DNA of 32,064 nt, taken from positions 1-32,064 of the IMG/VR virus record IMGVR_UViG_3300042154_002386; one strand, 5' to 3'. The first letter of the stretch is position 1, and each line of letters starts with the position of its first letter. The notes beneath the pieces were generated by a model. It worked only from the letters and a program-made list of their open reading frames with translations. It was not told the DNA's origin and searched no databases. A program made the position numbers and the translations under genes. Shown here in pieces: positions 1,560-29,330 of the stretch. Source of the stretch: a virus.

Positions 1560-1560
1560 T

Positions 1561-6581: not shown

Positions 6582-6625
6582 ATTAGGATATATGTAATAA
6601 TTTTCCTATATTAAAATAAAAAGTT

Positions 6626-6871: not shown

Positions 6872-6888
6872 ATTTAACGATATATTAA

Positions 6889-7518
6889 ATGGCAGTAAAA
6901 ATATCATATGCAATTACAGTTTGCCATGAGTTTATAGAAATACAACGTCTTGTTGCCTTCCTATTACAACACAAACGTACGGAAGATGAGATATGTATTT
7001 TGCTAGATAAACCAAAAGCATCTACCGAACTTCTGAATTTGCTTTATATTTGGTCATCTAAAGATTACATCCGCCTTAAGGAAAGTGCATTTCAAGGACA
7101 CTTTGCTGATTGGAAAAACGAACTAACTAGAATGTGTACGGGGGATGTAATCGTTAACATAGATGCTGATGAACTTCCATCTGAAAAGCTGATAGAGGCT
7201 ATTCCACACTTAGTACAAGAAAACCCAGATGTCGACGCAATGCTTGTTCCTAGAGTAAACACGGTAGCTGGTTTAACTTCAGATCATGTAGCAAATTGGG
7301 GCTGGCAAGTAACACCTGAGGGATGGATTAATTGGCCTGATATGCAGTGGCGGATTTATAAAAATTCTCCAGATATTAAATGGGTAAGTAAGGTTCACGA
7401 AAGGTTGGAAGGGTTTAAGACATATACGGCACTGCCAAGTGACCCTGCATTTGCTCTTTTTCACCCTAAGACCATAGACAAACAAGAACGACAAAACAGT
7501 TATTACGATACATTATGA
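6889..7518 (+). CDS. GT-A family glycosyltransferase (GT2-like)
   Basis: A 209-residue protein with the layout of a small GT2-type transferase. It has an N-terminal strand KISYAITVCHE, a middle DWKNELTRMCTGDVIVNIDADE that supplies a DxD-type metal and nucleotide-sugar site (D-A-D-E near residues 95-98), and a C-terminal KWVSKVHERLEGF segment like those that position acceptor residues in this family. It opens the tightly packed glycan operon: its stop overlaps the next ATG (ATGA). The N-terminal nucleotide-binding loop is poorly conserved, so subfamily and donor are uncertain. Confidence 0.75.
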   Translation: MAVKISYAITVCHEFIEIQRLVAFLLQHKRTEDEICILLDKPKASTELLNLLYIWSSKDYIRLKESAFQGHFADWKNELTRMCTGDVIVNIDADELPSEKLIEAIPHLVQENPDVDAMLVPRVNTVAGLTSDHVANWGWQVTPEGWINWPDMQWRIYKNSPDIKWVSKVHERLEGFKTYTALPSDPAFALFHPKTIDKQERQNSYYDTL

Positions 7519-10301: not shown

Positions 10302-11208
10302 TGGTGTATTAGACATATTACAAACAAAAGGAGATGTATTTTTAAACGAAACTGCATCTAAATCTGAAGTTAGAGATCTTTTATTAAAAGAAAACATTGA
10401 CACTATAATTTGTAATCCAAATCAACAGACATATAAAATTGACCATGAATTATTAAATGGTACTAATGTAACATTAATTAATACATGTTCAACTGGCATG
10501 AATCATATCGATCAGGAATATTGTAATTCTAATAATATTAATATATATTCTTTAACTAAAGATTATAAATTGATAAAACAATTGCCGTCGACATCCGAAT
10601 TAGCATTCGGATTGATGTTGTCATTATTAAGAAACATTCCAACTGCAAATCAACACGTTTCTGAATATAAATGGGACTATACTAATTTTGTAGGCAGACA
10701 AGTTAAAGGATTAACGGTTGGTATAATTGGATATGGTCGTTTAGGAAAAATGATGTTCGATTATTGTAATGCATTTGGAGCTAAGGTGAAGATTTATGAT
10801 CCATATGAAAAACAAAATTTGTCAGATGCATTTTTATTAAATCATTATGCAACATTGGAACATATGTTTGAAACATCTGATGTAATTTCATTGCACGTAC
10901 ATGTTACTAATGAAACTAAATATATGATAGATCGTAAGCTTCTTGGATTATGTAAAAATAGTCCTTATATTATAAATACATCGCGCGGAGAAATTGTACA
11001 TGAACATGATATTGTTGATGCGCTAGATGCAAATTTAATAGCGGGATACGGAACTGATGTTATAGAGAATGAATTTGATGATTTAACTAAGTCACCGATA
11101 ATCATAGCAATGAATAATAAAAAAAATATAATAGTTACTCCGCATATTGGCGGAATGACTCATGAAGGACAAAAAAAGGCATATACATGGGCAGTAAACA
11201 AACTTTAA
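10264..11208 (+). CDS. D-isomer-specific 2-hydroxyacid dehydrogenase (PGDH-like)
   Basis: A 314-residue NAD-dependent 2-hydroxyacid dehydrogenase. The cofactor site is GxGxxG at residues 156-161 (GYGRLG), followed by D179 (IYDPY). The catalytic triad is visible as R241 in NTSRGE, a Glu at 268/270 in DVIENE, and H294 in TPHIGG. Its length is near the 3-phosphoglycerate/erythronate dehydrogenase catalytic core, without a regulatory ACT domain. Inside a glycan operon it may make a hydroxyacid or keto-acid precursor rather than serine; that is inference. I chose ATG 10264 over the adjoining GTG. It overlaps both neighbours (38 bases upstream, 22 downstream). Confidence 0.88.
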   Translation: MKIAVITPVQHINGVLDILQTKGDVFLNETASKSEVRDLLLKENIDTIICNPNQQTYKIDHELLNGTNVTLINTCSTGMNHIDQEYCNSNNINIYSLTKDYKLIKQLPSTSELAFGLMLSLLRNIPTANQHVSEYKWDYTNFVGRQVKGLTVGIIGYGRLGKMMFDYCNAFGAKVKIYDPYEKQNLSDAFLLNHYATLEHMFETSDVISLHVHVTNETKYMIDRKLLGLCKNSPYIINTSRGEIVHEHDIVDALDANLIAGYGTDVIENEFDDLTKSPIIIAMNNKKNIIVTPHIGGMTHEGQKKAYTWAVNKL

Positions 11209-11750
11209 AGGTATTAGTAATAATACCAACAAAATTAGATTCAACGAGACTTCAGAATAAAAATATTCAACAAATAAATGGAAAACCTATGGTTGAATAT
11301 TCAATTGAATATGCAAAATCAAGTAAGTATAATCCTACAATTGTAGTTTCATCAGAAAGTCCGCATGTATGGGATATTGCGTTGAAAAATGATGTATTAT
11401 GGACTGCGAGGCCAGATCATCTTTTAAAAGATGCTGAAGTAACTGATGTGTATATTGAGTTTTGTAGTAAAATTGAAGATGGACAGTATGATTTAGTTGT
11501 AGCATTACAGCCAGATAATCCAGATAGATCACATACATTAGACGAATGTATCGATTATATGATTTCAAATAATTATGATGATTTAATTACCGTTAATCCT
11601 TCATATAAACGAAGTGGGTCTGTTAGAGTGTTTAAATTTGAGTATTTAAAAAATTCAATGGTTAGTAAAAGAATTGGGTGTATACAAGATGCTGCAACCG
11701 ATATTCATTATTTAGATGATTTAAAACAAGTAGAACAAAAAATAGGTTAA
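11187..11750 (+). CDS. NeuA-like cytidylyltransferase (acylneuraminate cytidylyltransferase family)
   Basis: A 187-residue nucleotidyltransferase resembling CMP-nonulosonate synthetases. The N-terminal IIPTKLDSTRLQNKN corresponds to the IPARxGSKxxPxKN nucleotide-binding loop, followed by INGKPMVEYSIEYA and later VVALQPDNPDRS, equivalent to the LQPTSPLR block. Typical NeuA proteins are about 220-230 aa, so this one is compact. With the NeuB-like enzyme two genes downstream, it would activate the nine-carbon acid as a CMP-sugar. Some activating-loop residues deviate, so KDO-like or other sugar specificity is possible. Confidence 0.75.
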   Translation: MGSKQTLKVLVIIPTKLDSTRLQNKNIQQINGKPMVEYSIEYAKSSKYNPTIVVSSESPHVWDIALKNDVLWTARPDHLLKDAEVTDVYIEFCSKIEDGQYDLVVALQPDNPDRSHTLDECIDYMISNNYDDLITVNPSYKRSGSVRVFKFEYLKNSMVSKRIGCIQDAATDIHYLDDLKQVEQKIG

Positions 11751-11751
11751 T

Positions 11752-12339
11752 ATGGCAAAATTTGGAAAAGAACGGTTTCCATCCAATTATCAAAATGCAG
11801 TAGGAATGAACTCAAGTTCAACGTTACATGAAAATTCAAAAGAATTGGTTAAACTACTTAAACAACATAATATTTTAAATTCCGAATCAAAGATCTTCGA
11901 GCTAGGATCAGGCCCTGGCAGAAATTTGCATTACATTAATGTCGAATTTAAAACGAATAACATTTATTGTAGTGATCTATTTGCAGAATCATCTAAGAAT
12001 AATATGTCTGAGTCAATAAAGAATATTATTACATTTTATGAAGGTGACTCACAAGATATCATCGATAATAATATTATTGAAGATTTAGATTTGTTTTTAG
12101 TTTCAGATCATTTTATGCATTTACAATATGAAAAGGCCGATTATATTATCAAAATGATTTTAAAAAATTGGAATCCTAAATATATAATGTTACGCGAACT
12201 GAAAAAAGAATTTGAAACCCCAGACCATCCTAGACTATTTCATAATTATGATCAGTTTTTACAAAAATATGATTTAATTTTAGAAACAACTAGCAGGCAA
12301 ACTGATGCATATTTTATTTGGTTATTAAAAAGAAAATAA
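11752..12339 (+). CDS. class I SAM-dependent methyltransferase
   Basis: A 195-residue methyltransferase. The SAM-binding motif I is FELGSGPGRNLHYI around residues 45-58, followed by an acidic strand end IYCSDLF, a DLFLVSDHFMHL block in the motif IV position, and a C-terminal beta region. It sits between the NeuA-like and NeuB genes with one-base spacers, so it probably methylates a sugar, either free, nucleotide-linked or on the finished glycan. No DNA-methylase catalytic motif (DPPY/NPPF) is present, which argues against base modification. Confidence 0.8.
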   Translation: MAKFGKERFPSNYQNAVGMNSSSTLHENSKELVKLLKQHNILNSESKIFELGSGPGRNLHYINVEFKTNNIYCSDLFAESSKNNMSESIKNIITFYEGDSQDIIDNNIIEDLDLFLVSDHFMHLQYEKADYIIKMILKNWNPKYIMLRELKKEFETPDHPRLFHNYDQFLQKYDLILETTSRQTDAYFIWLLKRK

Positions 12340-12340
12340 T

Positions 12341-13138
12341 ATGAGAATAATAGCAGAAATTGGTTGGAATCACTGCGGTGATATGAATCTAGCAAAAGAA
12401 ATGATTAAAGCGGCTGCAGACAGTGGAGCTGATTACGCCAAATTTCAAACTTGGTCTGTTTCTAGATTAAAAACAGGTGATTGGGACAACGATGGTCGCC
12501 GGGAGATTTATGAGCATGCTGAATTAACAAAAGAGCGCCATGAAGAATTAATTTCATATTGTAAAGAAATGAATATTTCATTCTTGTCATCAGTTTTTAG
12601 TACCGAAGATGCTAAACTATTAGTAGAATTAAAATGTAATTCAGTTAAAATACCTAGTTTTGAATCTAGAAATATTGAGTTAATTAAATATTGCAATGAC
12701 CATTTTGAAACCGTATTTATGTCAACGGGTACATCAACATTGGAAGAAATTAAATATAGTATAAGTTTCTTTAATAAAGCAACATTATATTTAATGCACT
12801 GTGTTTCCGTATATCCTGGAAAATATGAAATTGCAAATCTTCCAAAAATGATTGCGTTAAAACAAGTACACAATTTAGTTGGATATAGCGATCATATCGA
12901 AGGAATTGAATCTGCTAAGATTGCATTAGGATTAGGCGCAGTTGTTATTGAAAAACATTTTACAATCGATAATAATCTTCCAGGCCGGGATAATAAGTTT
13001 GCAATACTTCCAAATGAATTACTTGGATTACGTAAATATATTAATTATATTCATGATATGATGATAGATCATGGAACTAGTTATAATGAATTAGAATCTG
13101 ATTCAAGAACGAATTATGCAGGTAGATTTAATGGATAA
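12341..13138 (+). CDS. neuB: NeuB-type nonulosonic acid (sialate/legionaminate-like) synthase
   Basis: A 265-residue TIM-barrel synthase that should condense phosphoenolpyruvate with an N-acyl hexosamine to make a nine-carbon 2-keto acid. Family landmarks are AEIGWNHCGDMNLAKE at the N-terminus, GADYAKFQTW, FLSSVFS, KIPSFES, MSTGTSTLEE, LMHCVSVYP, VGYSDHIEG, and VIEKHFTIDNNLPGRDNKF near residues 205-223. Standard NeuB enzymes are about 340-350 aa with a C-terminal SAF (antifreeze-like) domain; this one stops after the barrel. The SAF domain normally helps close the partner active site, so it may act with an unseen partner or use a modified site. Sialic, legionaminic and pseudaminic products cannot be told apart from sequence. 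Confidence 0.9.
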   Translation: MRIIAEIGWNHCGDMNLAKEMIKAAADSGADYAKFQTWSVSRLKTGDWDNDGRREIYEHAELTKERHEELISYCKEMNISFLSSVFSTEDAKLLVELKCNSVKIPSFESRNIELIKYCNDHFETVFMSTGTSTLEEIKYSISFFNKATLYLMHCVSVYPGKYEIANLPKMIALKQVHNLVGYSDHIEGIESAKIALGLGAVVIEKHFTIDNNLPGRDNKFAILPNELLGLRKYINYIHDMMIDHGTSYNELESDSRTNYAGRFNG

Positions 13139-13772
13139 AATTTCAGTTATAATTAGAACTCGCAATGAATCTGAATATATAGGTTTTGCAATTCAATCGG
13201 CTATTGATCATTTTAAAGATCCAGAAATTATCATTATGGATAATAATTCTAATGATGATTCTATAGAAATTGTAAATTTATTTTCGCTTAAAACAAATAT
13301 ACAAGTATTCAATATTGATAACTATAGTCCCGGTAGATCTATTAATGAAGCAGTAAAACGATGTAATAATGATATTATTTTAATTTTATCTGCACATTCT
13401 CAGATTCATAAAATGGATTATGAATATGTCCAGTCTTGTTTAAAAAATCATGTAGCAGTATTTGGGAAACAAACTCCTATATACAGAGGTAAAAAAATAA
13501 CACCTAGATATATTTGGAGTCATTTTGGAACTGAAGAAGTTACTAATTTATTTTCAATCATTGAAGATAGATACTTTTTACATAATGCATTTTGTTTTTA
13601 TAGTAAAGAACATTTATTAAAATATCCATTTGATGAAAAACTAGTAGGCAAAGAAGATAGATATTGGGCTATTGATCAAGTTGAACTTGGATATTCATTT
13701 TTTTATACACCAAAAATAGAAATTAACCATTATTGGACCAACAATGGAGCAACATGGAAAGGTTTAGCATGA
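13131..13772 (+). CDS. GT2 family glycosyltransferase lacking a canonical DxD
   Basis: A 213-residue GT2-like transferase. It starts MDKISVIIRTRNESEYIGFA, then EIIIMDNNSNDDS (nucleotide-binding strand), SPGRSINEAV, and ILILSAHSQ where most GT2 enzymes have a DxD/DAD metal motif. An Ala-His variant occurs in some GT2 subgroups, so activity is not excluded. The C-terminal half ends with DQVELGYSFFYTP. I chose ATG 13131, which gives an 8-base overlap with neuB (ATGGATAA), over an in-frame ATG at 13116. The stop overlaps the next start by ATGA. Confidence 0.78.
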   Translation: MDKISVIIRTRNESEYIGFAIQSAIDHFKDPEIIIMDNNSNDDSIEIVNLFSLKTNIQVFNIDNYSPGRSINEAVKRCNNDIILILSAHSQIHKMDYEYVQSCLKNHVAVFGKQTPIYRGKKITPRYIWSHFGTEEVTNLFSIIEDRYFLHNAFCFYSKEHLLKYPFDEKLVGKEDRYWAIDQVELGYSFFYTPKIEINHYWTNNGATWKGLA

Positions 13773-14482
13773 AATTAGCAGTTTATACAGCATTATTTAC
13801 GGACAATCCGGATTATTTATATGGTGATCTTATACCATATGTACATGATAAAAATGGAATAGATTATATTGCATTTACTAATAGTGATTATTTAGAATCC
13901 AATTTTTGGGATGTACGTAAAATGGATATATGGAGATCTGGTCGATGGACCGCTAGAAAATGTAAAACATCTCCGGAAGAATTATTACCTGAATACGATG
14001 CCTGGTTGTGGATGGATAATGAAATTTATTTTACATACGACCCACATGATTTATTTGCATTACATTTAAATGATTTTGATTTAGCAGTTCATGTTCATTG
14101 TGATCGAGATTGTATTTATCAAGAAGTAAATGAAACTATTGATAGAAACCCGCTGCGTGATCCTAAAGAAATGATTATTAATCAAGGAGTGGAGTACCAA
14201 CAACAAGGATACCCAAAAAATACTGGTTTATATGAAAATGGTATATTATATCGACGAAACACTGAATTAATAAGAAATTTCAATAAAACGTGGTTTGAAG
14301 AAACTGCAAAATGGAATACTGAAGATCAAATTTCAATGATGTATGCATTATGGAAATATCCAGCTGTTACCGTTAATGCCTTAAAACAAACATTTGTTTC
14401 GCATAACTATAAAAACACGTATTTACCATTAACAGATCAATTTAAATGTTTGCCTAGATCGAATCGATATGTTAAAAAGTAA
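13769..14482 (+). CDS. TOD1/MUCI70-type glycosyltransferase-like protein (DUF616)
   Basis: A 237-residue protein matching the DUF616 (TOD1/MUCI70, glycosyltransferase-like) family. It has an N-terminal MKLAVYTALFTDNPDYL, IDYIAFTNSDYLESNFWDV, a DAWLWMDNEIYF acidic motif, DLAVHVHCDRDCIYQE, then GLYENGILYRRN and NTEDQISMMYALWK. The family is known from plants and bacterial polysaccharide loci. The MDNE stretch probably replaces the DxD metal site. I use ATG 13769 (ATGA overlap) rather than an ATG 36 bases upstream inside the GT2 gene. It probably adds a hexose-like sugar; the substrate is unknown. Confidence 0.8.
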   Translation: MKLAVYTALFTDNPDYLYGDLIPYVHDKNGIDYIAFTNSDYLESNFWDVRKMDIWRSGRWTARKCKTSPEELLPEYDAWLWMDNEIYFTYDPHDLFALHLNDFDLAVHVHCDRDCIYQEVNETIDRNPLRDPKEMIINQGVEYQQQGYPKNTGLYENGILYRRNTELIRNFNKTWFEETAKWNTEDQISMMYALWKYPAVTVNALKQTFVSHNYKNTYLPLTDQFKCLPRSNRYVKK

Positions 14483-15485
14483 AATATTATTATTATTTAC
14501 AAATCATAGAGTTGCTGAAAAACTATGGCCTATTATACCGCGGTTGGCCGATGAATATGAAATTGATTTATTTTGTGTTGGTCTATTTAGTTTACATACC
14601 CCATGGATTGGCGATATTGATGAACGTATTATTGCAATCAATAAATATAAACGGTATTTTAGTAATATAATTCAAGGACCTGGAATAAAATTTCATGGTG
14701 ATAAAATACAACACTCATTGCTAGATTTTATTAATTTAAATTCGTATAAGTTTGTAATTTATGATGACAATCGAGAAATGCAAGAATTTAAAATTCCAGA
14801 TTTTTATAATGAATGCAAACACAGAAATATTAAAGTAATTGGTAATGTACATGGCAATGAAGATGTTACGATAGATGCATCGGGTATTAGTTATGATTTT
14901 AAATTAGAATTTCACACCGGCGGAATTCCTGCGAATGATACATTAGCTAATGTAGTAGTTCAGCCCAGTCATATATTAGTTATAACCAATTACCTAGGCA
15001 ATCGTGAATCTATATTTCCTATTAATTTCGATCAACATTTTGTTTATGAATCTGGAATTTTAGAATTATCTAAACATTTTAACTTACCAATAAAAGTAAA
15101 AATAAAAACAAGACTTGATAAACCAGATTTTATTAATGATATTTCATATGTAAATAATCTATTAGACTGCGAAGTTATAACAAATTCAGAAAATATTGAT
15201 AATGTAATAGCCAATTCTGCTGTAGTTATATCAGCCCCATCTACATTATCATTTAAGTCGATTCAATTAGGAATTCCGACAGTATTGATTAAAGGGTGTG
15301 GACAAATTGGTAAATTCGATTCATATGCAGGATTAGTAGATCTAAGTAAACAACAAATATTTGATTCTATTCAACATCAAATTGATTGTGGTAAATTTAA
15401 TGAATATATACAAAATACCATCGCAGGTGGCCTTGAATTTAATTCATCGCAAAAATATGTTAACTATATAAAAACAATGTTATGA
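14469..15485 (+). CDS. GT-B-fold glycosyltransferase-like protein
   Basis: A 338-residue protein with two Rossmann-like halves. The first begins SKILLLFTNHRVAEKLW with GNVHGNE in the middle. The second contains VVISAPSTLSFKSIQLGIPTVL at about residues 250-275, the layout seen in UDP-GlcNAc 2-epimerase-like and CDP-glycerol/teichoic-type GT-B enzymes, where a Ser/Thr-rich loop and a GxPTVL strand hold the nucleotide. No EX7E motif is present, so it is not GT4. It could be a transferase for the nonulosonate or a 2-epimerase making its hexosamine precursor; I cannot decide. It overlaps upstream by 14 bases and downstream by ATGA. Confidence 0.55.
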   Translation: MLKSKILLLFTNHRVAEKLWPIIPRLADEYEIDLFCVGLFSLHTPWIGDIDERIIAINKYKRYFSNIIQGPGIKFHGDKIQHSLLDFINLNSYKFVIYDDNREMQEFKIPDFYNECKHRNIKVIGNVHGNEDVTIDASGISYDFKLEFHTGGIPANDTLANVVVQPSHILVITNYLGNRESIFPINFDQHFVYESGILELSKHFNLPIKVKIKTRLDKPDFINDISYVNNLLDCEVITNSENIDNVIANSAVVISAPSTLSFKSIQLGIPTVLIKGCGQIGKFDSYAGLVDLSKQQIFDSIQHQIDCGKFNEYIQNTIAGGLEFNSSQKYVNYIKTML

Positions 15486-16171
15486 AAATAATATACAGAA
15501 TATCAGACACTGGTTATAAAAAAGAAAAACCAGATTACATAGACAACGAAACGTGTTTAGCTAATGCTATTAAAGTGTTCCACAATGTAGAATGGTCTAT
15601 TATAGCAGACAATTGTAGCAAAGAAACATTGAACATGATTACTAAATATGTTCATCCTAATAAAATAACTACAGTGTCAGTAGGGCATGGAGCTGGTACA
15701 TTTAATTTAGCATTAGATGAAGCACTCGAATACAGTGATGATGATATAGTTTACTTTATAGAAAATGATTATCTACACAAACCAGAATCCGTAAAAATAC
15801 TAAAAGAAGGATTCGAATTGGGAGCTTCATTTGTTGCATTGTATGATCATCCAGATAAATACCTAGACCCGAGTAACGGAGGTAATCCATATAGTGCCGG
15901 GGGAGCGGAAGATACCCGAGTTTATTTAACTGACAGTTGTCATTGGAAAGTTACTAATTCAACAACAATGACATTTGCAGCAAAGGTATCCACATTAAAA
16001 CGAGTAGAACCGATACTAAGAAAACATACATCGGGTACGCACCCAGATGACTTCCAAATGTTTTTGGAACTAAGACAACAAGGAGAATTATTAATAACAC
16101 CTTTACCAGGATATGCAACACATGGCGAAACTGCGTGGTTATCTCCTTTAACAGATTGGAGCAAAGTATGA
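15482..16171 (+). CDS. GT-A-type glycosyltransferase
   Basis: A 229-residue protein with a GT-A-like layout. An early strand EWSIIADNCSKETLNMI is followed by GAGTFNLALDEAL and IVYFIENDYLHKPES, where E-N-D-Y replaces the DxD metal site. The C-terminal part has TMTFAAKVSTL, then THPDDFQMF (a plausible catalytic acid region) and ATHGETAW with a possible metal-binding His. Such proteins occur beside other transferases in phage and bacterial glycan loci. It is ATGA-coupled to both neighbours. Donor and acceptor are unknown. Confidence 0.7.
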   Translation: MKIIYRISDTGYKKEKPDYIDNETCLANAIKVFHNVEWSIIADNCSKETLNMITKYVHPNKITTVSVGHGAGTFNLALDEALEYSDDDIVYFIENDYLHKPESVKILKEGFELGASFVALYDHPDKYLDPSNGGNPYSAGGAEDTRVYLTDSCHWKVTNSTTMTFAAKVSTLKRVEPILRKHTSGTHPDDFQMFLELRQQGELLITPLPGYATHGETAWLSPLTDWSKV

Positions 16172-16932
16172 TATCAGTAATTATCCCAACATATAAAAGT
16201 CCAGAAATGCTCGATCTATGTTTACGATCAGCAATCGAAGGACAAACAAATAAAAATCAGATCATAGTTGTAGTAGATGGGTTCTATGACTTAAATAAAG
16301 AGGTCTTAGACCGATGGACAGGCTCTATTGATATACTGAACCTACCGACCAATCAAGGTCTTTGTAGGGGCACTAATTTGGGGGTGTACAATGCCAGATA
16401 CGATAAGATACTCATTGTTAATGATGACAACATATTTCCAAAATTTTGGGATGATAATCTAGAGTTAAACTGTATTGATGGTGCTGTAATTTCTCCTAAT
16501 CAAATCGAACCCAGTCCAAGCATGTTCCCTCAGTTCCACATAAAGGATCTAGGAAAATCAATTAATTTATTTGATTTACCCCGATTTCAGGAATATGAAA
16601 AAGATTTAAATACAGTAACATATAAAAAAGTACCTGAAGAAACCGGCTCTACGCTCCCAATATTTATGTCTAAAACAGATTATTTAAGAGTAGGTGGGTG
16701 GGATGAAAATTACGAACATGGTATGGTCGCAGATTGGGACTTCTTTTTAAAATGCCAACTTTCAGGACTTAAAATGATTAGAACCTATAATTGCCATTTT
16801 TACCATTTTGCTTCAGTTTCAGTGAATGGAGAAAAAAGGCGGCGATCGGAGATTGCTGGTCATGAATATGCAAAATATAAATGGGGTGCTTATATTAAAC
16901 ATGATCCGGCTAACAACCTAAAGTTCATATAA
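16168..16932 (+). CDS. GT2 family glycosyltransferase
   Basis: A 254-residue classical GT2 transferase closing the glycan operon. It has SVIIPTYKSPEMLDLCLRS at the N-terminus, QIIVVVDGF, NQGLCRGTNLGV, ILIVNDDNIFP (metal-binding D-D), then GGWDENYEHGMVADWDFFLK, the WDE and DWD motifs typical of the acceptor side and catalytic base. Length and order fit rhamnosyl/galactosyl-type GT2 enzymes. I use ATG 16168, which overlaps the upstream stop by ATGA, instead of an in-frame ATG at 16135. After it comes a 67-base gap with a late-type promoter, so transcription probably resets here. Confidence 0.88.
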   Translation: MISVIIPTYKSPEMLDLCLRSAIEGQTNKNQIIVVVDGFYDLNKEVLDRWTGSIDILNLPTNQGLCRGTNLGVYNARYDKILIVNDDNIFPKFWDDNLELNCIDGAVISPNQIEPSPSMFPQFHIKDLGKSINLFDLPRFQEYEKDLNTVTYKKVPEETGSTLPIFMSKTDYLRVGGWDENYEHGMVADWDFFLKCQLSGLKMIRTYNCHFYHFASVSVNGEKRRRSEIAGHEYAKYKWGAYIKHDPANNLKFI

Positions 16933-19055: not shown

Positions 19056-20072
19056 ATGTTAACAGAATACGAAACACAATCTGGTTTATCTCCAACTATT
19101 TGGAAAGACGAAACTATTCCGACTAGTATTCGTCTAGGATTATTAAAGATTGCAAAGTATTTTTATGACTTTTTAGATGTTAACGCTGCAATCAAAGATA
19201 TAATACTCACCGGCTCATCTGTGAATTATAATTGGACTCCAAATTCTGATATTGATTTACATGTTGTGATTGAATATTCTGATGTAGATAAAAATGAAGA
19301 TCTTGTTCGTAATTTAATGATGGCTAAGAAAAGTATATGGAATTCTAAATACCCATTAAAACTTGGAAATATGGATATTGAACTGTATGCACAGGATGCA
19401 TCAGAGCCACACACATCAACCGGCGTATATTCATTAATGAAAAACAAATGGATAAAAAAACCAAACTATCAAGAAATACAGATCGATGACCAAGAAATTG
19501 CAGAAAAAGCAGCTCCATTTGTATATATGATCAGTCAAATTAATGCAAACGATACTACCGCATTAGAAGATATTGACCGACTACGTGATAAATTGAAAAA
19601 ATTTAGAAAATGTGGGTTAGATGCCGGCGGAGAATATTCTATAGAAAATTTAGCATTTAAATGGTTACGTAATGAAGGATATCTAACTCGTTTATCAGAA
19701 TTAAGAGAAAAAGTTATGATGCAAAACATGGAATTGACAGAAAATAAAACTATTGATGTGGAATCTACAATACGTAGACATTTATATACTAAAGACAAAT
19801 TAACTGATGACGAATGGTCGATGCTTTCTGAATACATGGATGCCGTAACAGATCCAATGGGACAGTGGGAACACCCCGGCGTTTGCACTATAATACCAGG
19901 AAATGCTATTACAATGCAATTTGTTAATTATCCAGTATTTGGATTTGATGACACTGGCCATCACATTATAATGAAACCAAATGAACGACATAGATATCCC
20001 GGAAACAAAGTTTTTGAAATACCTATGAATAGAGCCGATTATTTAGAACTAGTAGAAAGATTAACGAGATGA
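19056..20072 (+). CDS. nucleotidyltransferase-fold protein with unknown C-terminal domain
   Basis: A 338-residue protein. The N-terminal domain is a minimal nucleotidyltransferase: IILTGSSVNYNWTPNSDIDLHVVI, with the GSS motif at residues 53-55 and the D65-x-D67 metal pair, plus a third acidic strand MDIELYA further on. The middle is helical with KLKKFRKCGLD, and the C-terminal third (from about residue 250) is a separate domain rich in aromatics and His. The family adds nucleotides to proteins, RNA or antibiotics; the phage target is unknown. The N-terminus MLTE resembles the end of the capsid tag seen in downstream genes but is too short to count as a full tag. Stop and next start overlap (ATGA). 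Confidence 0.78.
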   Translation: MLTEYETQSGLSPTIWKDETIPTSIRLGLLKIAKYFYDFLDVNAAIKDIILTGSSVNYNWTPNSDIDLHVVIEYSDVDKNEDLVRNLMMAKKSIWNSKYPLKLGNMDIELYAQDASEPHTSTGVYSLMKNKWIKKPNYQEIQIDDQEIAEKAAPFVYMISQINANDTTALEDIDRLRDKLKKFRKCGLDAGGEYSIENLAFKWLRNEGYLTRLSELREKVMMQNMELTENKTIDVESTIRRHLYTKDKLTDDEWSMLSEYMDAVTDPMGQWEHPGVCTIIPGNAITMQFVNYPVFGFDDTGHHIIMKPNERHRYPGNKVFEIPMNRADYLELVERLTR

Positions 20073-20971: not shown

Positions 20972-21349
20972 ATGATACGAGAAGATTACAACGAACACGA
21001 AGGCAAAATGGCAAAACAGGATGCAATGGAATGTGCAGACGATGCTCAAGCAGTTGCTAATATGATTCACGAAACGGATGATTTGCCAGAATGGGTAGAA
21101 GCTAAAATAACATTGGCTGCTGAATATATGAACACAGTAAAAGATTGGTTAACATATAATAAAGCTGGTGATGCCCGGTCTGCCATGAAAATGCAATTAA
21201 AGGCATTGATGCCAGAACGCATAGAAAAGATAGATGATAAATGGGTTGTATATCCTAGCAAAGGCGGAAATAGATTAGGTACCCACGACACTAAAAAATC
21301 AGCTTTAAAACAGTTAGCCGCAATCGAAATAAATAAAGGTAAACGATGA
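20972..21349 (+). CDS. phage protein of the EGxMAKxQ...LPxWVxxKI type
   Basis: A 125-residue protein with two parts. Residues 8-60 (HEGKMAKQDAMECADDAQ, then DDLPEWVEAKITLAAEYMNTV) match a small helical family I recall from many myophages, often encoded near head genes. Residues 85-125 form a basic alpha/beta tail (VVYPSKGGNRLGTHDTKKSAL). No catalytic residues are obvious and the function is unknown. It lacks the decapeptide tag of the next genes. It has an AAGGA site and is ATGA-coupled to the tagged Cys-rich protein. Confidence 0.65.
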   Translation: MIREDYNEHEGKMAKQDAMECADDAQAVANMIHETDDLPEWVEAKITLAAEYMNTVKDWLTYNKAGDARSAMKMQLKALMPERIEKIDDKWVVYPSKGGNRLGTHDTKKSALKQLAAIEINKGKR

Positions 21350-21759
21350 ATTTATTAAAATACTTGCTAGTAGAACAACGTACGGGTTGCCCGATTGCAA
21401 CTCAAGATATGAATGTTAATCTCAAGAATCGAAAAAACGCAATCAATGAATACATGTATGGACCATTGGATCCAAATCAGCCAAATAAAGAATATTGGCA
21501 AAAAATTGCATTAGAATGGAATTTGGACGATATCGAACAAGCAAAGAGTGCTAGATGCGGTAACTGTGCTGCATTTGATATTACAGATAAAATGCAATCA
21601 TGTATTGCCAAAGGTATAGGTTCTGAACCAGGTAGCGACGCCATGGATACTATTAATGCAGGAACATTAGGATACTGTAAATTTTTGAAATTTAAATGTG
21701 CTGCAAAAAGAACATGTAGTGCATGGGTCGAAGGCGGTCCGATTAAATCTAAATCATAA
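21346..21759 (+). CDS. Cys-rich protein with predicted capsid-targeting leader
   Basis: A 137-residue protein. It begins MNLLKYLLVE, the first of four near-identical decapeptide leaders in this region, ending in an L-x-E site. The mature part is Cys-rich: a CPIATQD start, ARCGNCAAFD (CxxC, near residues 66-69), then MQSCIAKGIGSE, GYCKFLKFKCAAKRTCSAW. About seven cysteines in this spacing suggest a metal or Fe-S centre. I recall homologous phage proteins (ARCGNCAAF ... GYCKxxxFKCA) of unknown function. Inferred: a head-internal protein that may carry a metal cluster. Confidence 0.75.
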   Translation: MNLLKYLLVEQRTGCPIATQDMNVNLKNRKNAINEYMYGPLDPNQPNKEYWQKIALEWNLDDIEQAKSARCGNCAAFDITDKMQSCIAKGIGSEPGSDAMDTINAGTLGYCKFLKFKCAAKRTCSAWVEGGPIKSKS

Positions 21760-21760
21760 A

Positions 21761-22249
21761 ATGCCAAATAAAATACAAAATATAATTAACGAAGATTTGC
21801 GAGATTGGTTGGGCACTGGCGACAAAGGTGGTGTTGGCGGCGGAGGATGGGATCGCTACAATTCACAAGGTGATCGAGTCGGAAAATGCGGAGATGCCAA
21901 AGACGGAGATCCATATTCTGCTTGTTTGTCTAAAGAAAAAGCAGAAAAGCTAGGTAAAGATGGCAGAGCTAAATTCGTACGAAGAAAACGAGCCGCACAG
22001 AAAAAAGGTGGCGATGCAGCAAAAGGCGGAGAACAAAAAAAAGGTCAAAAGCCAATTCGGGTAAAAACGGAACTCGCAGAAAAATTAAATTTATTTCTGG
22101 AAAAGAATGTTCCAAATGATCCTAATAAATGGTCGTATGCAAAGAGCCAAGCAAAAAAGAAGTATGATGTATATCCCTCAGCATACGCAAATGCATGGGC
22201 TTCAAAAAAATATAAAGAACTTGGTGGAACATGGAGAACAGCAAAATGA
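21761..22249 (+). CDS. DUF5872-like basic protein with predicted capsid-targeting leader
   Basis: A 162-residue, very basic protein. The leader MPNKIQNIINE ends in I-N-E at residues 9-11, close to the tag of the neighbours. Next comes a Gly-rich GDKGGVGGGGWDRYN segment, a CGDAKDGDPYSACLS pair of Cys, a long Lys/Arg-rich stretch, and a C-terminal domain with KKYDVYPSAYANAWASKKYKELGG. That last block resembles DUF5872, seen in phages and algal viruses. A highly basic, Gly-rich protein fits DNA binding inside the head. I use ATG 21761 (one base after the preceding stop) over an in-frame ATG at 21698. It is ATGA-coupled to the SOD gene. Confidence 0.75.
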   Translation: MPNKIQNIINEDLRDWLGTGDKGGVGGGGWDRYNSQGDRVGKCGDAKDGDPYSACLSKEKAEKLGKDGRAKFVRRKRAAQKKGGDAAKGGEQKKGQKPIRVKTELAEKLNLFLEKNVPNDPNKWSYAKSQAKKKYDVYPSAYANAWASKKYKELGGTWRTAK

Positions 22250-22887
22250 TAACACTTAAACGCATATTAACAGAATCAAAACAACTAGAATTTAAACGGT
22301 TGCCATTAACATATGGATTAACAGATCTGTCTCCTATTATAGATGCAGAAACCATGCAAGAACATTATACAAAACATTATAAAGGCTATACTGATAAATT
22401 TAATTCAGCTTGTACAGAATTTAATTATACTTCCGATAAACATGGTTTATTAGAGCGAGCCATTGATATTTGTAAAAAATATTATAAAAAAGATGTTATT
22501 AGAAATAACGGCGGTGGATATATAAACCATTTGTTGTATTTTGAAAATATGACACCTAATTATAAACCACCTAGTTCAAAATTAAAGGCAATGCTAGATG
22601 ATGCTTTCGGAAGTATTTCTAAATTTAAAGAACAGTTTAAACAAGCTGGACTAGATAGATTTGGTTCGGGTTGGGTTTGGTTGTGTGTAAATAATGGTAA
22701 ATTGGAAATATCTACAACATCAAATCAAGACAATCCATATTTTGATAGTAGTATATCAGGAACACCGATATTGGCAATGGATGTTTGGGAGCATGCATAT
22801 TATTTAAAACATCAAAGCAACCGGGCTTCATATATCAACGATTTTTTTAGAGTTATTGATTGGCAGGTAGTTGAAACGAGAATATAG
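22246..22887 (+). CDS. sod: Mn/Fe superoxide dismutase with predicted capsid-targeting leader
   Basis: A 213-residue iron/manganese superoxide dismutase, converting superoxide to O2 and H2O2. All four metal ligands are present: H40 (QEHYTKH), H95 (GYINHLLYF), D179 and H183 (MDVWEHAYYLK). The GGG before H95 and the NQDNP at 160-164 are features of Mn-type enzymes, where a Gln outside helix 3 contacts the active site. The usual HH pair reads H44-Y45. A leader MITLKRILTE precedes the SOD fold, which otherwise starts near residue 18, so the leader is an addition absent from ordinary SODs. The tag and the tagged neighbours suggest that the enzyme is packaged in the virion. ATG 22246 gives an ATGA overlap. 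Confidence 0.9.
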   Translation: MITLKRILTESKQLEFKRLPLTYGLTDLSPIIDAETMQEHYTKHYKGYTDKFNSACTEFNYTSDKHGLLERAIDICKKYYKKDVIRNNGGGYINHLLYFENMTPNYKPPSSKLKAMLDDAFGSISKFKEQFKQAGLDRFGSGWVWLCVNNGKLEISTTSNQDNPYFDSSISGTPILAMDVWEHAYYLKHQSNRASYINDFFRVIDWQVVETRI

Positions 22888-22896
22888 AAAAAAATT

Positions 22897-23709
22897 ATGA
22901 TACGTTTAAAACCATTACTAACAGAAACCGTTAAAGATGCATCTTTTATCGACCGGTTAAAGAAATATGAAAACAGTAAAGGAAATCCGAGCGGGGGATG
23001 GGATCCATCAAAGCAAAAATGGTTTCCACATGGAAGCCCAGAAGGTGGCACTAAAACTATTGCATATGGTCATAAATTACAGTCAAATTCTGAATATCCA
23101 AACGGAATTACAGATACAGACGCGTCCAAACTTCTAGAACGCGATATTGACAATGCAATTACCAAAATAAAAAATGCATTAAAGATTACTAATTTTGATT
23201 CGCTTCCGTCATATGTACAGCAAGCGCTTGTTAACGCAACTTTCCGGGGTGAATTAAAATATGGACACACGGCAGTTGGATATATGAGAAACCGCCAATG
23301 GGATAAAGTAGCAAATGAATATTTAGATAATGATAATTACAGATCTGGATCTGATGGACTTAGGGCCCGAATGGAATGGAATGCAAATCAATTTCGCAAA
23401 TATGGTGAAGAACAATCATTATCACAACTAATTCAACTTAAAAATACAGATGTGCAGATAGTTAAGCCAATAGTAAACCCTGGCCAGCAAATAACTATTC
23501 GAATAGTAAACCCATCGTTAAAACAAGTAGATGCGGATTTTAAAGTTGTCGTAGCTCAAATATACAGTAATACCGGGGAGTTAATAAAAAAACATCGATG
23601 GGAAGATATTGAACAAGGAATCCTTCAATTCAATGCCCCAGCAGAAGCTGGTAACTATATTATAAAATTGAATCGATCGGCAACCGTACCAGTGCGAGTT
23701 GCTGACTAA
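22897..23709 (+). CDS. GH24 lysozyme with predicted capsid-targeting leader and C-terminal Ig-like domain
   Basis: A 270-residue protein. After the leader MIRLKPLLTE comes a T4-lysozyme-like GH24 domain: E25 in KKYENSKGN is the expected catalytic Glu, and TIAYGHKL near residues 55-62 is the conserved TxxYGH loop. Later LPSYVQQALVNATFRGELKYG covers the second lobe. From about residue 185 a beta-sandwich tail with QITIRIVNPSLKQ, then PAEAGNYIIKLN resembles a fibronectin or Ig-like module. Unlike the amidase at 17737, it carries the tag and has no holin next to it. This suggests a virion enzyme that opens the wall during infection rather than a lysis enzyme. Confidence 0.82.
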   Translation: MIRLKPLLTETVKDASFIDRLKKYENSKGNPSGGWDPSKQKWFPHGSPEGGTKTIAYGHKLQSNSEYPNGITDTDASKLLERDIDNAITKIKNALKITNFDSLPSYVQQALVNATFRGELKYGHTAVGYMRNRQWDKVANEYLDNDNYRSGSDGLRARMEWNANQFRKYGEEQSLSQLIQLKNTDVQIVKPIVNPGQQITIRIVNPSLKQVDADFKVVVAQIYSNTGELIKKHRWEDIEQGILQFNAPAEAGNYIIKLNRSATVPVRVAD

Positions 23710-23732
23710 ATATTTGGAATTTATTATTTATT

Positions 23733-23745
23733 TATTTATAATAAG
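23733..23745 (+). promoter_or_regulatory. late-type box TATTTATAATAAG close to a start codon
   Basis: Twelve of 13 bases match the box at 3778 and 16961. It ends 3 bases before the ATG at 23749, so a transcript starting a normal distance downstream would begin at or inside the start codon. That implies a leaderless mRNA or a start further in. Confidence 0.45.
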
Positions 23746-23748
23746 TAT

Positions 23749-23982
23749 ATGAATGATAGTAATCAATTAGACCGATTAATAAAAATATCAATGTTGTTTC
23801 TTGAATCTTTTAATGATACTCATTCTAAACAACAAGTATTAGATTTATTTCCAAAATATTGGAATCTAGAAAAATGCAATGTGGTTTTAGATAATCTACT
23901 AGCATATTGCATACAGTCAGAAAACGAGTTTTGGGAACAAGCAGCTGTTATAAGAAATGTCAAAGAAAAAATTAACTCATAG
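23749..23982 (+). CDS. hypothetical 77-aa helical protein
   Basis: A 77-residue, mostly helical protein I do not recognise (LIKISMLFLESFND, then QQVLDLFPKYWNLEKC, then a final amphipathic helix). Two Cys are present without a metal-binding pattern. It overlaps the ClpS-like gene by 26 bases, so it is probably co-expressed with it. A late-type box sits almost on its ATG. The in-frame ATG 14 codons in (23791) is an alternative start that would leave a normal leader. Confidence 0.6.
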   Translation: MNDSNQLDRLIKISMLFLESFNDTHSKQQVLDLFPKYWNLEKCNVVLDNLLAYCIQSENEFWEQAAVIRNVKEKINS

Positions 23983-24238
23983 AGGAACATACCAATTAAT
24001 AATATTTAATGATGATCATCATACATTCGATGAAATTATTAATTTATTGATAAGTTATGCTGGCCATTTGCCGACACAGGCTCTACAATGCGCTAGTATA
24101 ATTCACAATACTGGTAAATATCCGGTAGTAGAAGATAAATATGATGTTTGTTATGACACATACCAATGTTTACTAGAATATAATATAGTTATGGAAATTA
24201 TAAAAAAACGTAAATATGATGCTAATTCACACAGTTAA
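23957..24238 (+). CDS. clpS: ClpS-like N-degron adaptor
   Basis: A 93-residue protein resembling ClpS, which delivers N-degron proteins to the ClpAP protease. The family motif NDD is at residues 18-20 in LIIFNDDHHTFDEII. The helical core NLLISYAGHLPTQALQCASIIHNTGKYPV corresponds to the E. coli stretch ending VHYQGK, with H50 at the place of the ligand-pocket His. The C-terminal CYDTYQCLLEYNIVMEI matches the last helix. E. coli ClpS is 106 aa, so the core is complete and the N-terminal tail is short. A phage version could redirect host proteolysis or block it. Confidence 0.75.
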   Translation: MSKKKLTHRGTYQLIIFNDDHHTFDEIINLLISYAGHLPTQALQCASIIHNTGKYPVVEDKYDVCYDTYQCLLEYNIVMEIIKKRKYDANSHS

Positions 24239-24419
24239 AAAACAATTATTAAGTATGCGTATTGCAGTACTACATGCTACATATCATCGCAATTTAAAAA
24301 AAGCAACTCTCGCTAAAATGAAAAAAAATCTAGTCGACTTTCAAAAATATATTTATAAGTCAGAAGATGCATGGCGAAAAATGGTAAGATTGATAACAAA
24401 ACAAAATTTATATAAATAA
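24216..24419 (+). CDS. hypothetical 67-aa basic protein
   Basis: A 67-residue, strongly basic protein (about a quarter Lys/Arg) I do not recognise. It appears helical throughout (KKATLAKMKKNLVDFQKYIYKSEDAWRKM quoted in parts: ATLAKMKKNL, VDFQKYIYKS). It overlaps the ClpS-like gene by 23 bases. ATG 24216 and ATG 24219 are both possible starts. A DNA- or RNA-binding role, or a partner of ClpS, is possible but unproven. Its stop codon lies within an exact TATAAATA box. Confidence 0.55.
   Translation: MMLIHTVKKQLLSMRIAVLHATYHRNLKKATLAKMKKNLVDFQKYIYKSEDAWRKMVRLITKQNLYK
24411..24418 (+). promoter_or_regulatory. late-type promoter box TATAAATA
   Basis: An exact match to the T4 late promoter -10 core overlaps the stop of the preceding gene and lies 12 bases before the ATG at 24431. 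Spacing would give a very short 5' leader. Function is inferred from similarity. Confidence 0.45.
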
Positions 24420-24430
24420 AAAATAAAACA

Positions 24431-24817
24431 ATGGGTAAAAAAGATGCATATTCGGGAATGGCACCAAAAGACATTTCTACATTAGCAATGGATCGATTCA
24501 TTCGACGAAATGAACAAAAAAATCAATATACACAAACATTACCGGCTAGAAGAAAAGATGATAGTATACCAATTCATATGTGGCCGTTAAAAGATCAATT
24601 GCAATACTGGGAAAATAGATCAGACCAAGACCGATTCCATGAAAAATATATGTCGTATAGTCTCTGGCATGATGAAGTAAAGCGTATATCTGGTGTGTAT
24701 CCGGCAACTTTTTTAGATTATACTTCTAAACTCAAAACGGAAATTCGTGCAATGTATGATCAATGTATGAACCCCAAATTAGCAGTATTAGAACTAAGAA
24801 AACATGGTGTATACTAA
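24431..24817 (+). CDS. hypothetical 128-aa protein
   Basis: A 128-residue protein I do not recognise. It is rich in charged and aromatic residues (SGMAPKDISTLAMDRFIRR, IPIHMWPLKDQLQYWENRSDQ, YSLWHDEVKRISGVYPATF). It lacks Cys/metal motifs, a signal peptide and membrane segments, and looks like a soluble, probably helical protein. Its stop overlaps the ATG of the HNH gene (TAATG), so the two are translationally linked. Expression probably starts from the TATAAATA box 12 bases upstream. Confidence 0.6.
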   Translation: MGKKDAYSGMAPKDISTLAMDRFIRRNEQKNQYTQTLPARRKDDSIPIHMWPLKDQLQYWENRSDQDRFHEKYMSYSLWHDEVKRISGVYPATFLDYTSKLKTEIRAMYDQCMNPKLAVLELRKHGVY

Positions 24818-25374
24818 TGGCTGATAAAAAGGAATATTCTTATATTTATGGCATCGGTCGTAGTTCGTTAAATTTAAGTGAATCTGATATTAGATATGCC
24901 ATAGAAAATACAAAATCTAATGCAGAGGCTGCTAGATTTCTTAAGGTGTCATTTACGTCGTATAAGAAATATGCTAAAATGTATATCGATCATGGTACCG
25001 GTAACACATTGTATGATTTACACACTAACCAAGCCGGTAAAGGAATTAATAAGGAGACACCGAATGCAACATCTGGTAGATATTCTATAGAAAAAATATT
25101 AGCCGGAGAACATCCTAATTATCCTGTGTGGAAAATACGAAATCGCGTATTGGCACTAGGAATTATGCCAGAAGAATGTAGTAGTTGCGGATATTCAGAA
25201 AGGCGTATAACAGATGACACGGTGCCACTTCTATTAGATCATATTGATGGAGATAAAACCAATCATTGTGTAGAAAATTTACATATGCTTTGTTTGAATT
25301 GTTATTATCAACAAGCTGGCAATCCGTTCAACGAGCAAAAGGAACAGTACTGGAATTATAATAATTTATCCTGA
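24817..25374 (+). CDS. HNH endonuclease with N-terminal helix-turn-helix-like segment
   Basis: A 185-residue HNH-type nuclease. The zinc-ribbon half is CSSC (C121, C124) and CLNC (C159, C162). The catalytic beta-beta-alpha contains LLDHIDGDKTNH (D141-H142, H150) and NLHML with N154. Residues 30-55 (NAEAARFLKVSFTSYKKYAK) look like a helix-turn-helix that would read DNA. Such proteins are common as free-standing homing endonucleases in phages. I use ATG 24817, which overlaps the previous stop, rather than an in-frame ATG at 24763. It lies between two virion-type genes and may be a recent insertion. Confidence 0.88.
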   Translation: MADKKEYSYIYGIGRSSLNLSESDIRYAIENTKSNAEAARFLKVSFTSYKKYAKMYIDHGTGNTLYDLHTNQAGKGINKETPNATSGRYSIEKILAGEHPNYPVWKIRNRVLALGIMPEECSSCGYSERRITDDTVPLLLDHIDGDKTNHCVENLHMLCLNCYYQQAGNPFNEQKEQYWNYNNLS

Positions 25375-25387
25375 TATATATTAGTAT

Positions 25388-26146
25388 ATGATTTATCTCA
25401 AAAAATTAGTAACAGAAGGTCGATATGATTCATTAACAGGCGCACTGTCTAAAACATTGTTACAGACAATAAAAAACAGTTATACAGCTATTAATAGCCC
25501 AGATGGAAAATTTGCTGGAATTAAGATATATTTTAAAAAAGGCGAAACAGTACCGGAAATTACAGCATCTAATTTCAAAGAAATATATTTTCAAGAAGTA
25601 GAAAATACTGATATTCCTATAGAATTTTATTTATCACTTAAAGTTCAGTGGATTCAAGGATTTGCTGATCTTCGAAAAGGTGGTGATGCTTGGAATGATA
25701 GCTGGGAAGAAATTCCAGATGATGGCTCTGACCTACCATTGGTTGAAATCCGATTTGAAATTGATCCATCGGAATACCCTGCCGTATTAAGTGAAATAGC
25801 AATGGACCTTCGTGACACTCTTCGACACGAAATAGAACATCTTACTCAAAGCGGTCCGAATTTGATATCAGGTAAATTTATCCCATCAGATTCGGAATTG
25901 AGATCTAAAATAGAAACTGGCGAATTGCCGGCAAAAGAATACTTTATGTTGCCAAAAGAGGTAGATGCAAATATTCAAGGATTATATTTTTCTGCTAAAA
26001 AACGAAGAGTTGCATTTAAACAAGTAGTTGATGAATATCTAAATTTATTTGTTATAGACAATACAATCAGTAAAGAAGATAAACAAGAAATAGTTAATAC
26101 GTGGCGGAGACGATTGCCAGCTCTTGGAATCAAACAGGAATTATAA
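25388..26146 (+). CDS. HEIEH zinc metallopeptidase with predicted capsid-targeting leader
   Basis: A 252-residue protein. The leader MIYLKKLVTE is the fourth copy of the decapeptide tag, ending in V-x-E. The centre is a zincin-type HExxH: LRHEIEHLTQSG, with H147, E148 and H151, preceded by an alpha helix (EIAMDLRDT). A following LPKEVDAN (E191) could be the third zinc ligand, as in gluzincins. The rest has no close family I can name. I infer a head-internal peptidase delivered with the DNA that would cut host proteins early in infection, similar in idea to T4 and jumbo-phage ejected proteins. A role in head maturation is an alternative. Confidence 0.75.
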   Translation: MIYLKKLVTEGRYDSLTGALSKTLLQTIKNSYTAINSPDGKFAGIKIYFKKGETVPEITASNFKEIYFQEVENTDIPIEFYLSLKVQWIQGFADLRKGGDAWNDSWEEIPDDGSDLPLVEIRFEIDPSEYPAVLSEIAMDLRDTLRHEIEHLTQSGPNLISGKFIPSDSELRSKIETGELPAKEYFMLPKEVDANIQGLYFSAKKRRVAFKQVVDEYLNLFVIDNTISKEDKQEIVNTWRRRLPALGIKQEL

Positions 26147-26503
26147 ATGGAAGAAATAACTCTTTGCACTACATGTGCTATAGCACTAGTAAAAGATATT
26201 AATGAAGGTAAATTGACTTTAACAGAAGCAAAATACCAGGGAAGAAAAGTTACGCTGAACAAACCAATGCGTACTGGTACTAATGAACCTAAAAAATTCA
26301 AAGTGTATGTTAAAGACCCGACAACTGGGAATGTTAAAATGGTTCGATTTGGTCATCAAGGCGGTGGAGTCAATCCAGATAAAAAAACAATGCGAATAAA
26401 AAAGTCAAACCCTGCGCGACGAAAGTCATTTAGAGCAAGACATAACTGTGATAATCCGGGATCTAAAACTAAAGCAAGATACTGGTCATGTAAAATGTGG
26501 TAA
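26147..26503 (+). CDS. basic phage protein with internal LTE site (RKVTLNKPMR...ARHNCDNPG family)
   Basis: A 118-residue protein. The N-terminal 27 residues contain INE (18-20) and LTE (25-27), both possible prohead-protease sites. After LTE the sequence AKYQGRKVTLNKPMR, then KKFKVYVKDPTTGNVKMVRFG and SFRARHNCDNPGSKTKARYW matches a short basic family I recall in marine phages, where homologues often start directly at xLTEAK. The C-terminal NC...C-K-M-W with three Cys is conserved-looking. Basic charge suggests binding DNA in the head. The longer N-terminus here may be an added leader or an upstream misread start; ATG 26147 is the only good one in place. It abuts the metallopeptidase stop. Confidence 0.65.
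   Translation: MEEITLCTTCAIALVKDINEGKLTLTEAKYQGRKVTLNKPMRTGTNEPKKFKVYVKDPTTGNVKMVRFGHQGGGVNPDKKTMRIKKSNPARRKSFRARHNCDNPGSKTKARYWSCKMW

Positions 26504-27702: not shown

Positions 27703-29330
<1,628 letters not shown>

Follow-up and report, generated by a model that had tools for sequence, protein, structure and literature searches.

In bacteriophage T4, according to the accessible parts of PMC9026906, the prohead protease gp21 cuts after L/I-X-E, the first 10 residues of the internal protein IPIII suffice as a leader, and within this leader residues 4 and 7 serve targeting while residues 8 and 10 serve processing. The same source already states that leaders may allow T4-like phages to load various proteins, and the available text of PMC12373910 describes that the ip genes of T-even phages were located by their leader. 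Here we study a ten-residue leader, or tag, that is shared by four proteins of a 32,064-base virus record, a fragment that we call the window (the whole stretch of DNA that was analysed). We consider it highly likely that this decapeptide is a T4-type capsid-targeting propeptide, used for head loading and trimming of a broad enzyme cargo.

A first, sequence-only reading of the window had inferred such a leader for capsid targeting and cleavage, and what it said of T4, both the gp21 site and the ten-residue leader, agrees with the accessible parts of PMC9026906. Every part of the proposal that sequence can test speaks in its favour: length and determinants of the tag, the combination of protease, major capsid protein (MCP) site and tags on a related contig, and the enrichment of such leaders in the virion of S-CREM2. 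For the phage of the window itself it is a well-supported inference.

A conserved leader on unrelated proteins

The final 11,776 bases of the window are base-identical to the start of a 47.6-kb record, the sister contig G001, which is therefore taken to be, very probably, the same phage. The features under study are listed below; the arrow stands for the predicted cut.

21346..21375, + strand: MNLLKYLLVE, tag of the Cys-rich protein, with its predicted cut at VE↓Q; the corresponding leaders in relatives are MRDLINLLE↓A and MINLLDILSE↓A
21346..21759, + strand: Cys-rich protein; 7 invariant Cys in 19 aligned sequences
21761..22249, + strand: fifth candidate, MPNKIQNIINE↓DLRDWLG, with Glu at 11; weak match to PHROG 27331
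22246..22275, + strand: MITLKRILTE, tag of the superoxide dismutase, with its predicted cut at TE↓S
22246..22887, + strand: Fe/Mn superoxide dismutase, by Pfam (Sod_Fe_C 3.1e-37, Sod_Fe_N 8.1e-17)
22897..22926, + strand: MIRLKPLLTE, tag of the lysozyme, with its predicted cut at TE↓T; other wall hydrolases in this slot bear the same tag
22897..23709, + strand: phage lysozyme, by Pfam (Phage_lysozyme PF00959 at 2e-5)
25388..25417, + strand: MIYLKKLVTE, tag of the HEIEH protein, with its predicted cut at TE↓G; E10, G11, Y13 and D14 invariant in 37 relatives
25388..26146, + strand: putative zinc metallopeptidase, by the motif HEIEH
26147..26503, + strand: possible further member, a KPMRTG domain after KDINE↓GKLTLTE↓AKYQGRK; phrog_7595

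All four tagged open reading frames (ORFs) are present as first described. Each has the pattern M-x-x-L-K-x-h-h-x-E (h, hydrophobic) with Glu at residue 10, and behind the tag the four proteins belong to unrelated families, as had been claimed. The longest frame of the dismutase begins at ATG 22231; its tag begins at ATG 22246, with ggag directly upstream. A further tag, MIKLKSIIDE, is found in the sister contig past the end of the window.

The exact pattern is seen in 4 of the 48 window genes of at least 60 residues versus 0 of 152 internal Met. When residues 2-30 of each window gene start were shuffled in 20,000 rounds, 19,967 rounds gave no match, 33 gave one match, and none gave more. The pattern was derived from the four window proteins, and therefore held-out sequence weighs more. 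In the held-out contigs of the clade, together with positions 1-21340 of the window, all five features of the tag occur in 40 of 500 genes at a Met within the first 45 residues, and at 0 of 1,626 later Met; among these 40 tags are MIKLKSIIDE and the copies of the four window tags on the sister contig, and some of the 40 come from near-duplicate contigs. A search for more pattern-bearing proteins had been proposed, and across all IMG/VR loci gathered a slightly wider pattern is found at 69 of 6,063 gene starts versus 0 of 24,671 internal Met, with identical proteins counted once and homologues separately.

The 40 clade tags fall into 8 groups without any blastp link between their mature parts, the largest being metallopeptidase-like proteins (16) and wall hydrolases (15, partly linked by LysM domains). 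At the level of sequence the tag is thus conserved and stands on otherwise unrelated enzymes. The clade tags have L/M4, hydrophobic residues at 7 and 8, and E10, in agreement with the T4 determinants at 4, 7, 8 and 10; this agreement follows partly from the choice of pattern, yet it held for the original four before any search. The L-K form of the tag is found in 0 of 215 genes of Flavobacterium phage immuto and in 1 of 215 genes of S-CREM2; in these phages the layout of the leaders is the same but their letters differ.

A related contig with protease, predicted capsid site and tags

The sequence-only reading had also pointed to a gp21-like prohead protease as a check. The family, PF03420, has no match in the window and the sister contig, which are both fragments, and is present on the related contig G064. 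By tblastn, the head genes of immuto have no match in the window or the sister contig. The gp21-type protease of PF03420 is seen in 9 of the first 52 related records and in 6 of 11 records that bear a dismutase; the closest group of the window is not represented among them. An MCP scan covered the best 80 of 591 relatives, whose loci contain one strict-tag protein only in 1,110 genes; as these loci are nearly tag-free, the search for a contig with head genes started from the opposite end of the sister contig, and its genes there led to G064.

This contig has 74,397 bases, and 16 ORFs called on the sister contig have a match in it, with identities of 28-75% and in one case over a mere 38 residues. 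It encodes a gp21-type protease (9e-35), an MCP whose propeptide ends in RQLVKE↓A, and, before the capsid gene, a protein with the tail ANRWKKLAGLI. Strict tags stand on 5 of its 98 called genes (MIKLKRILTE, MILLKQILNE, MIRLRDILTE, MISLRDIISE and MIRLKHLLIE), or on 4 of 90 at a minimum of 60 residues, and near matches are present too. In sequence, protease, capsid site and tags are hence found together on one related contig. Ten tagged or near-tagged proteins of G064 were submitted to Pfam, and none reaches the cut-off. Four tagged or near-tagged proteins of this contig (L448:3237-6564) also have a common end like GIDTPxxPxM, and two have a kinase-like glycine loop (GGGYYG, GEGGFG).

In the 80 loci of the scan 67 MCP frames were readable, two of them without the segment in question, and LENQA-[KR]-[QE]-h-h-x-E is found in all 65 frames that have it. 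By analogy with T4, we predict that the MCP of these relatives is cut at this Glu. The spacing of the site (basic residue, two hydrophobics, Glu) equals the spacing of the tag, K-x-h-h-x-E.

A leader rule that was fixed beforehand matches only ipII, ipIII and gene 24 among 70 called T4 ORFs in two stretches; according to the T4 record ipII and ipIII are internal virion proteins and gp24 is cleaved by gp21. For the cyanophage S-CREM2, packaged enzymes are listed in the virion proteome (Table 3 of PMC10665884, from the accessible text). The fixed rule, applied to 222 called genes of S-CREM2 (a set without two detected ORFs, gp145 and gp174), marks 5 of the 27 detected proteins that count as non-structural or unknown, 0 of the 23 structural ones and 2 of the 172 undetected ones (Fisher p=5.6e-4 for 5/27 vs 2/172). 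The five are a S-adenosylmethionine hydrolase (MKDFDSFLEE), gp13 (MKDLHSFLTE), a kinase (MKRFDAFLTE), gp136 (MQTFSMFFSE) and a protein of the nicotinamide mononucleotide adenylyltransferase (NMNAT) type (MKNFSSFLTE). With a looser rule the numbers are 6/27 vs 9/172 (p=0.008), and when all 50 virion proteins are compared with the rest, p is 0.11 under the looser rule and 0.007 under the fixed one. The NMNAT of S-SCSM1 was detected in the virion (PMC9602691, accessible parts); it starts with MKSFLQFLKE↓A, and its relative in P-SSM2, known from sequence, with MKSFSQFLTE↓T. By published mass spectrometry, distant relatives therefore package enzymes whose leader has this layout. Of 7 dismutase-bearing or immuto genomes, 6 show an excess of looser-rule matches at gene starts relative to internal Met (p 0.00003-0.02).

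From these similarities we infer the following course. While the head assembles, the leader would dock the tagged enzyme to the prohead's scaffold core; a gp21-type serine protease would then cut after Glu10 and release the mature enzyme, which would remain inside the head with the DNA and be delivered with it at infection. The tag is modular, as in this clade it stands on the dismutase, several families of wall hydrolases in one slot, the Cys-rich protein, the putative zinc metallopeptidase and further unnamed proteins. Least certain are the roles of the enzymes: conceivable are protection of packaged DNA or blunting of host oxidants for the dismutase, assistance with entry for the wall hydrolase, and cleavage of host proteins for the HEIEH protein.

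Cargo, chained enzymes and other explanations

The cargo had been described as a set of redox enzyme, wall enzyme, protease and metal protein. Pfam bears this out for the dismutase and the lysozyme, the putative metallopeptidase is assigned by its HEIEH motif, and the cargo appears wider and more exchangeable than was claimed. Assignment of 22246..22887 to the Fe/Mn superoxide dismutases draws on its Pfam domains and on the His/His/Asp/His positions, which we take to be the metal ligands and which an alignment to 6gsc shows to be conserved. Alignments with the best PDB dismutases begin at residue 15 of the window protein. Dismutase relatives are encoded in 48 viral loci, and 44 were read, leaving out four partial matches (L350, L351, L355, L356). 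In 35 there is a leader with Glu near residue 9-10, e.g. MKLMSILTE↓A, MIKLLDLLTE↓A or MKIKDILFE↓Q (in two of these, L336 and L337, the frame is still open upstream), and three are fused behind other domains (L323, L328, L330). A dismutase of the giant phage G007, with 25% identity, has its own extension, which contains FINLVE↓A.

In 16 clade contigs, including two near-duplicate pairs, a tagged protein precedes the metallopeptidase-like gene; the two starts lie 2.2-2.7 kb apart in 15 of the contigs and 4.1 kb apart in the remaining one. For the six of the 16 to which Pfam was applied, the protein in this slot belongs to Phage_lysozyme in the window, L011 and L014, to Cell Wall Hydrolase in L008 and (below cut-off) G020, and to Phage_lysozyme2 in L012, with LysM in addition in L008, L011 and L012. 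In one gene slot the tag thus is constant and the wall hydrolase varies over three Pfam families, a pattern that is expected if a tagged wall hydrolase is what matters. The window lysozyme as query found only the sister contig.

For the Cys-rich and HEIEH proteins no Pfam family was found. Relatives of the former are annotated as 'high potential iron-sulfur protein' in 7 phage records; against PDB sequences there is one match, to an unrelated protein (E=0.09), and the structure model has a predicted local distance difference test (pLDDT) score of 48, too poor for use. In Actinomycetia phage DSL-LC01 (L226:19656-20390) a Cys-rich relative directly precedes genes annotated as capsid maturation protease and major capsid protein. 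The HEIEH motif is invariant across 37 aligned sequences, and the model of the protein has a pLDDT of 88; a fold search with this model against PDB gave no match at E<=0.001.

Two neighbours that were overlooked at first carry the same kind of site, 21761-22249 with Glu at 11 and 26147-26503 with the internal LTE↓AKYQGRK. Starts that resemble the former are found on related contigs (MDNLKRLVQE↓SLRDWFKKEKW and MIKLHDLMNE↓DLRRWVKEKW), and a relative of the latter in G020 starts with MIKLKSLLE. Zeta-toxin-family P-loop proteins of related phages bear a leader as well (L364:1082-2020, L370:13666-14418). A relative of the window nucleotidyltransferase (19056-20072), S-CREM2 gp156, is detected in the virion and has no such leader.

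Immuto-like phages mostly have the metallopeptidase-like domain within a long protein. The residue two before Glu is hydrophobic in 53 of 53 fused copies read (40 different seven-residue contexts), at a background density of h-x-E in these long proteins of 2% per residue. E, G, Y and D at the joint are invariant in the 37 aligned copies, standalone or fused; E↓G-x-Y-D could belong to the fold of the HEIEH domain, and it is therefore support only, not proof. Shortly ahead of fused dismutases we find LNE↓Q (G062) and ITE↓N (L328), and inside a fusion of G054 a tag-like ITLKSLLME↓E. In L328:3062-6829 and G062:40109-44029, NMNAT-like, HExxH, dismutase and (L328) cupredoxin-like stretches are chained, with h-x-E at some joints. 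Immuto gp088 (L225:17913-20636) is such a chain without dismutase, and its sole annotation is nicotinamide mononucleotide adenylyltransferase.

A second leader, RMQKLAGIITE or close variants, lies near the start of about 15 short unnamed proteins (e.g. L225:22457, L227:25061, L384:4271, L321:7534). It resembles the C-terminal RMQKLAGIIK of 48 scaffold-like proteins (such as L221:6049), whose identity as scaffold is based on the location before gp23; a PHROGs search of the scaffold-position protein gave no named family. The LAG motif has 4 true internal occurrences among 6,041 proteins. Two matches were discounted, one of 5 scored as 'internal', which is a mis-called start, and one of 16 N-terminal ones, that of L192, which is unrelated. 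We read the second leader as one that may load cargo through mimicry of the scaffold. A third start type, KNILAENMLRFRxKN or NILAENMLRFRxKN, is common to neighbouring proteins on the sister contig (L186:388-1080 and 1252-1728, minus strand). Tentatively, and with slightly less than even confidence, the hydrophobic-x-Glu code could be a general cargo grammar in immuto-related T4-like phages: a docking leader before single enzymes, cuts between chained ones (NMNAT-like, two HExxH, dismutase, cupredoxin-like), an enzyme kit delivered with the genome, and MQKLAGIITE as a second class of leader that mimics the scaffold tail.

If the decapeptide were instead a helix that docks proteins to baseplate, tail or membrane, with its Glu inside the helix and uncut, the PHROG matches of the lysozyme, among them a baseplate hub and tail lysozyme family, would fit, as would the tail lysozyme in the S-CREM2 virion. 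However, the leader rule marks none of the 23 structural proteins of that virion, tail proteins included, the Glu position and the hydrophobic pair agree with the known cut site and the predicted MCP sites, and the model of the HEIEH protein gives residues 1-8 of its tag a pLDDT of less than 50; we regard this explanation as improbable. Nearly the same low probability is given to a variant in which head loading is correct and the trimming is done by the phage's own metallopeptidases, not by gp21. One or two HExxH domains are indeed contained in the long chains, and processing by metallopeptidases was proposed for polyvalent proteins (PMC5512222, accessible parts), but 24 of the 40 tagged proteins are not metallopeptidase-like, and the sites in the tags agree with the gp21 rule as well as with those predicted for the MCP. 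That AT-rich short starts were copied among adjacent genes by recombination, or form an initiation-friendly codon run whose peptide has no function, is very improbable, as the 30 bases upstream agree at only 6-12 positions between pairs of tags, 1-2 of the 4-6 shared residues per pair are encoded by different codons, and Glu is retained at about residues 9-10 in relatives whose leader sequences differ. A secretion signal peptide was set aside on judgement alone.

Several observations weigh against the decapeptide being a T4-type propeptide. The virion evidence comes from the distant S-CREM2 and S-SCSM1, the clade of the window being known from sequence alone, and in S-CREM2 22 of the 27 packaged non-structural proteins are outside the rule. 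In T4 the rule misses IPI, gp22, gp23 and gp67. The residues that follow Glu (Q, T, N and K besides G, S and A) are a broader set than in T4. G064 has no matches to the first 21 kb of the window or to its four tagged proteins, its likeness being limited to the sister part beyond the window. The looser rule falsely matches the terminase of G064; in the giant relative G007 it is little enriched, at 6/399 starts versus 10/1,920 internal Met (p=0.04), and it is not enriched in the giant relatives G011 (3/384 versus 9/1,715, p=0.47) and G005 (0/191 versus 5/882, p=0.59) or in G054 (4/185 versus 7/845, p=0.12). Six of the 44 dismutases read have no leader (L348, L349, L352, L353, L354, L357), and 25 of 53 long metallopeptidase chains with closed 5' end begin directly with an NMNAT-like domain.

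Immuto is the only named phage among the 10 genomes and contigs compared by tblastn. It matches 11 ORFs in the first 20.5 kb of the window (25-61% identity) and 11 ORFs of the sister contig, and because of these matches a Bacteroidota host is likely. Among named phages no DNA near-identical to the window was found. The window also encodes a GroEL (27720-29330) with 56% identity to that of immuto, and at 3814-16932 a long run of genes, partly common to immuto, that resemble glycosyltransferases, epimerases and other sugar enzymes. Five paralogues of the sister contig (at 16332, 27116, 27537, 31197 and 31516) start with MKTIAQ or MKTIAK and have repeated NNEIYYEDSDG-like units.

Comparison with described systems

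If the decapeptide is a T4-type propeptide, the enzymes that a phage carries in its virion can be predicted from sequence by their leader, and many unnamed proteins of aquatic T4-like phages become testable effectors of early infection. It would also suggest why these phages have dismutases, additional wall hydrolases, nucleotidases and zeta-toxin-like proteins, and would provide short tags for loading chosen proteins into phage heads. We searched the literature for dismutase in phage heads, for cyanophage leaders and for polyproteins with a prohead protease, and found no description in the sources within reach, which mostly exclude subscription journals.

The closest likeness is to T4. The leader of IPI-III, and the start of gp24, is like the tags here in its length of 10, in hydrophobic residues at 4, 7 and 8, in Glu10 and in the unrelated proteins behind one leader, and the gp21 protease family is found here on a related contig. 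Different are the letters, as the T4 leader is MKTYQEFIAE and the tags of the window are rich in leucine and lysine, and the cargo, which in T4 consists of small restriction inhibitors and here of recognisable enzymes (dismutase, wall hydrolases and the HEIEH protein, with zeta-toxin-like and nucleotidase families in relatives).

In SPN3US, as far as the available text tells, head proteins are likewise cut after Glu by the phage's prohead protease; the motif there is A-X-E, whereas here a ten-residue leader has two hydrophobics ahead of x-E. The signal of P1 DarB is, from the accessible text, also an N-terminal head signal and also carries a reporter into the head, but it measures more than 9 and up to 30 residues, and comparison of the Dar proteins gave no consensus. 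The polyvalent proteins of phages and plasmids are described in the accessible parts of PMC5512222 as multi-domain chains, with zincin-like metallopeptidases and Pol-beta nucleotidyltransferases, that are thought to be delivered early. In the clade of the window domains of this type are separate genes, several of them individually tagged; several unrelated enzymatic domains in one chain are not seen in the window and are found in relatives, where the chains have h-x-E at some joints. Finally, cyanophage virions contain enzymes (NMNAT, kinase, SAM hydrolase, nuclease). The available parts of the papers on these virions do not name a shared leader as loading signal, while five S-CREM2 virion proteins, three of them named enzymes, fit the leader rule.

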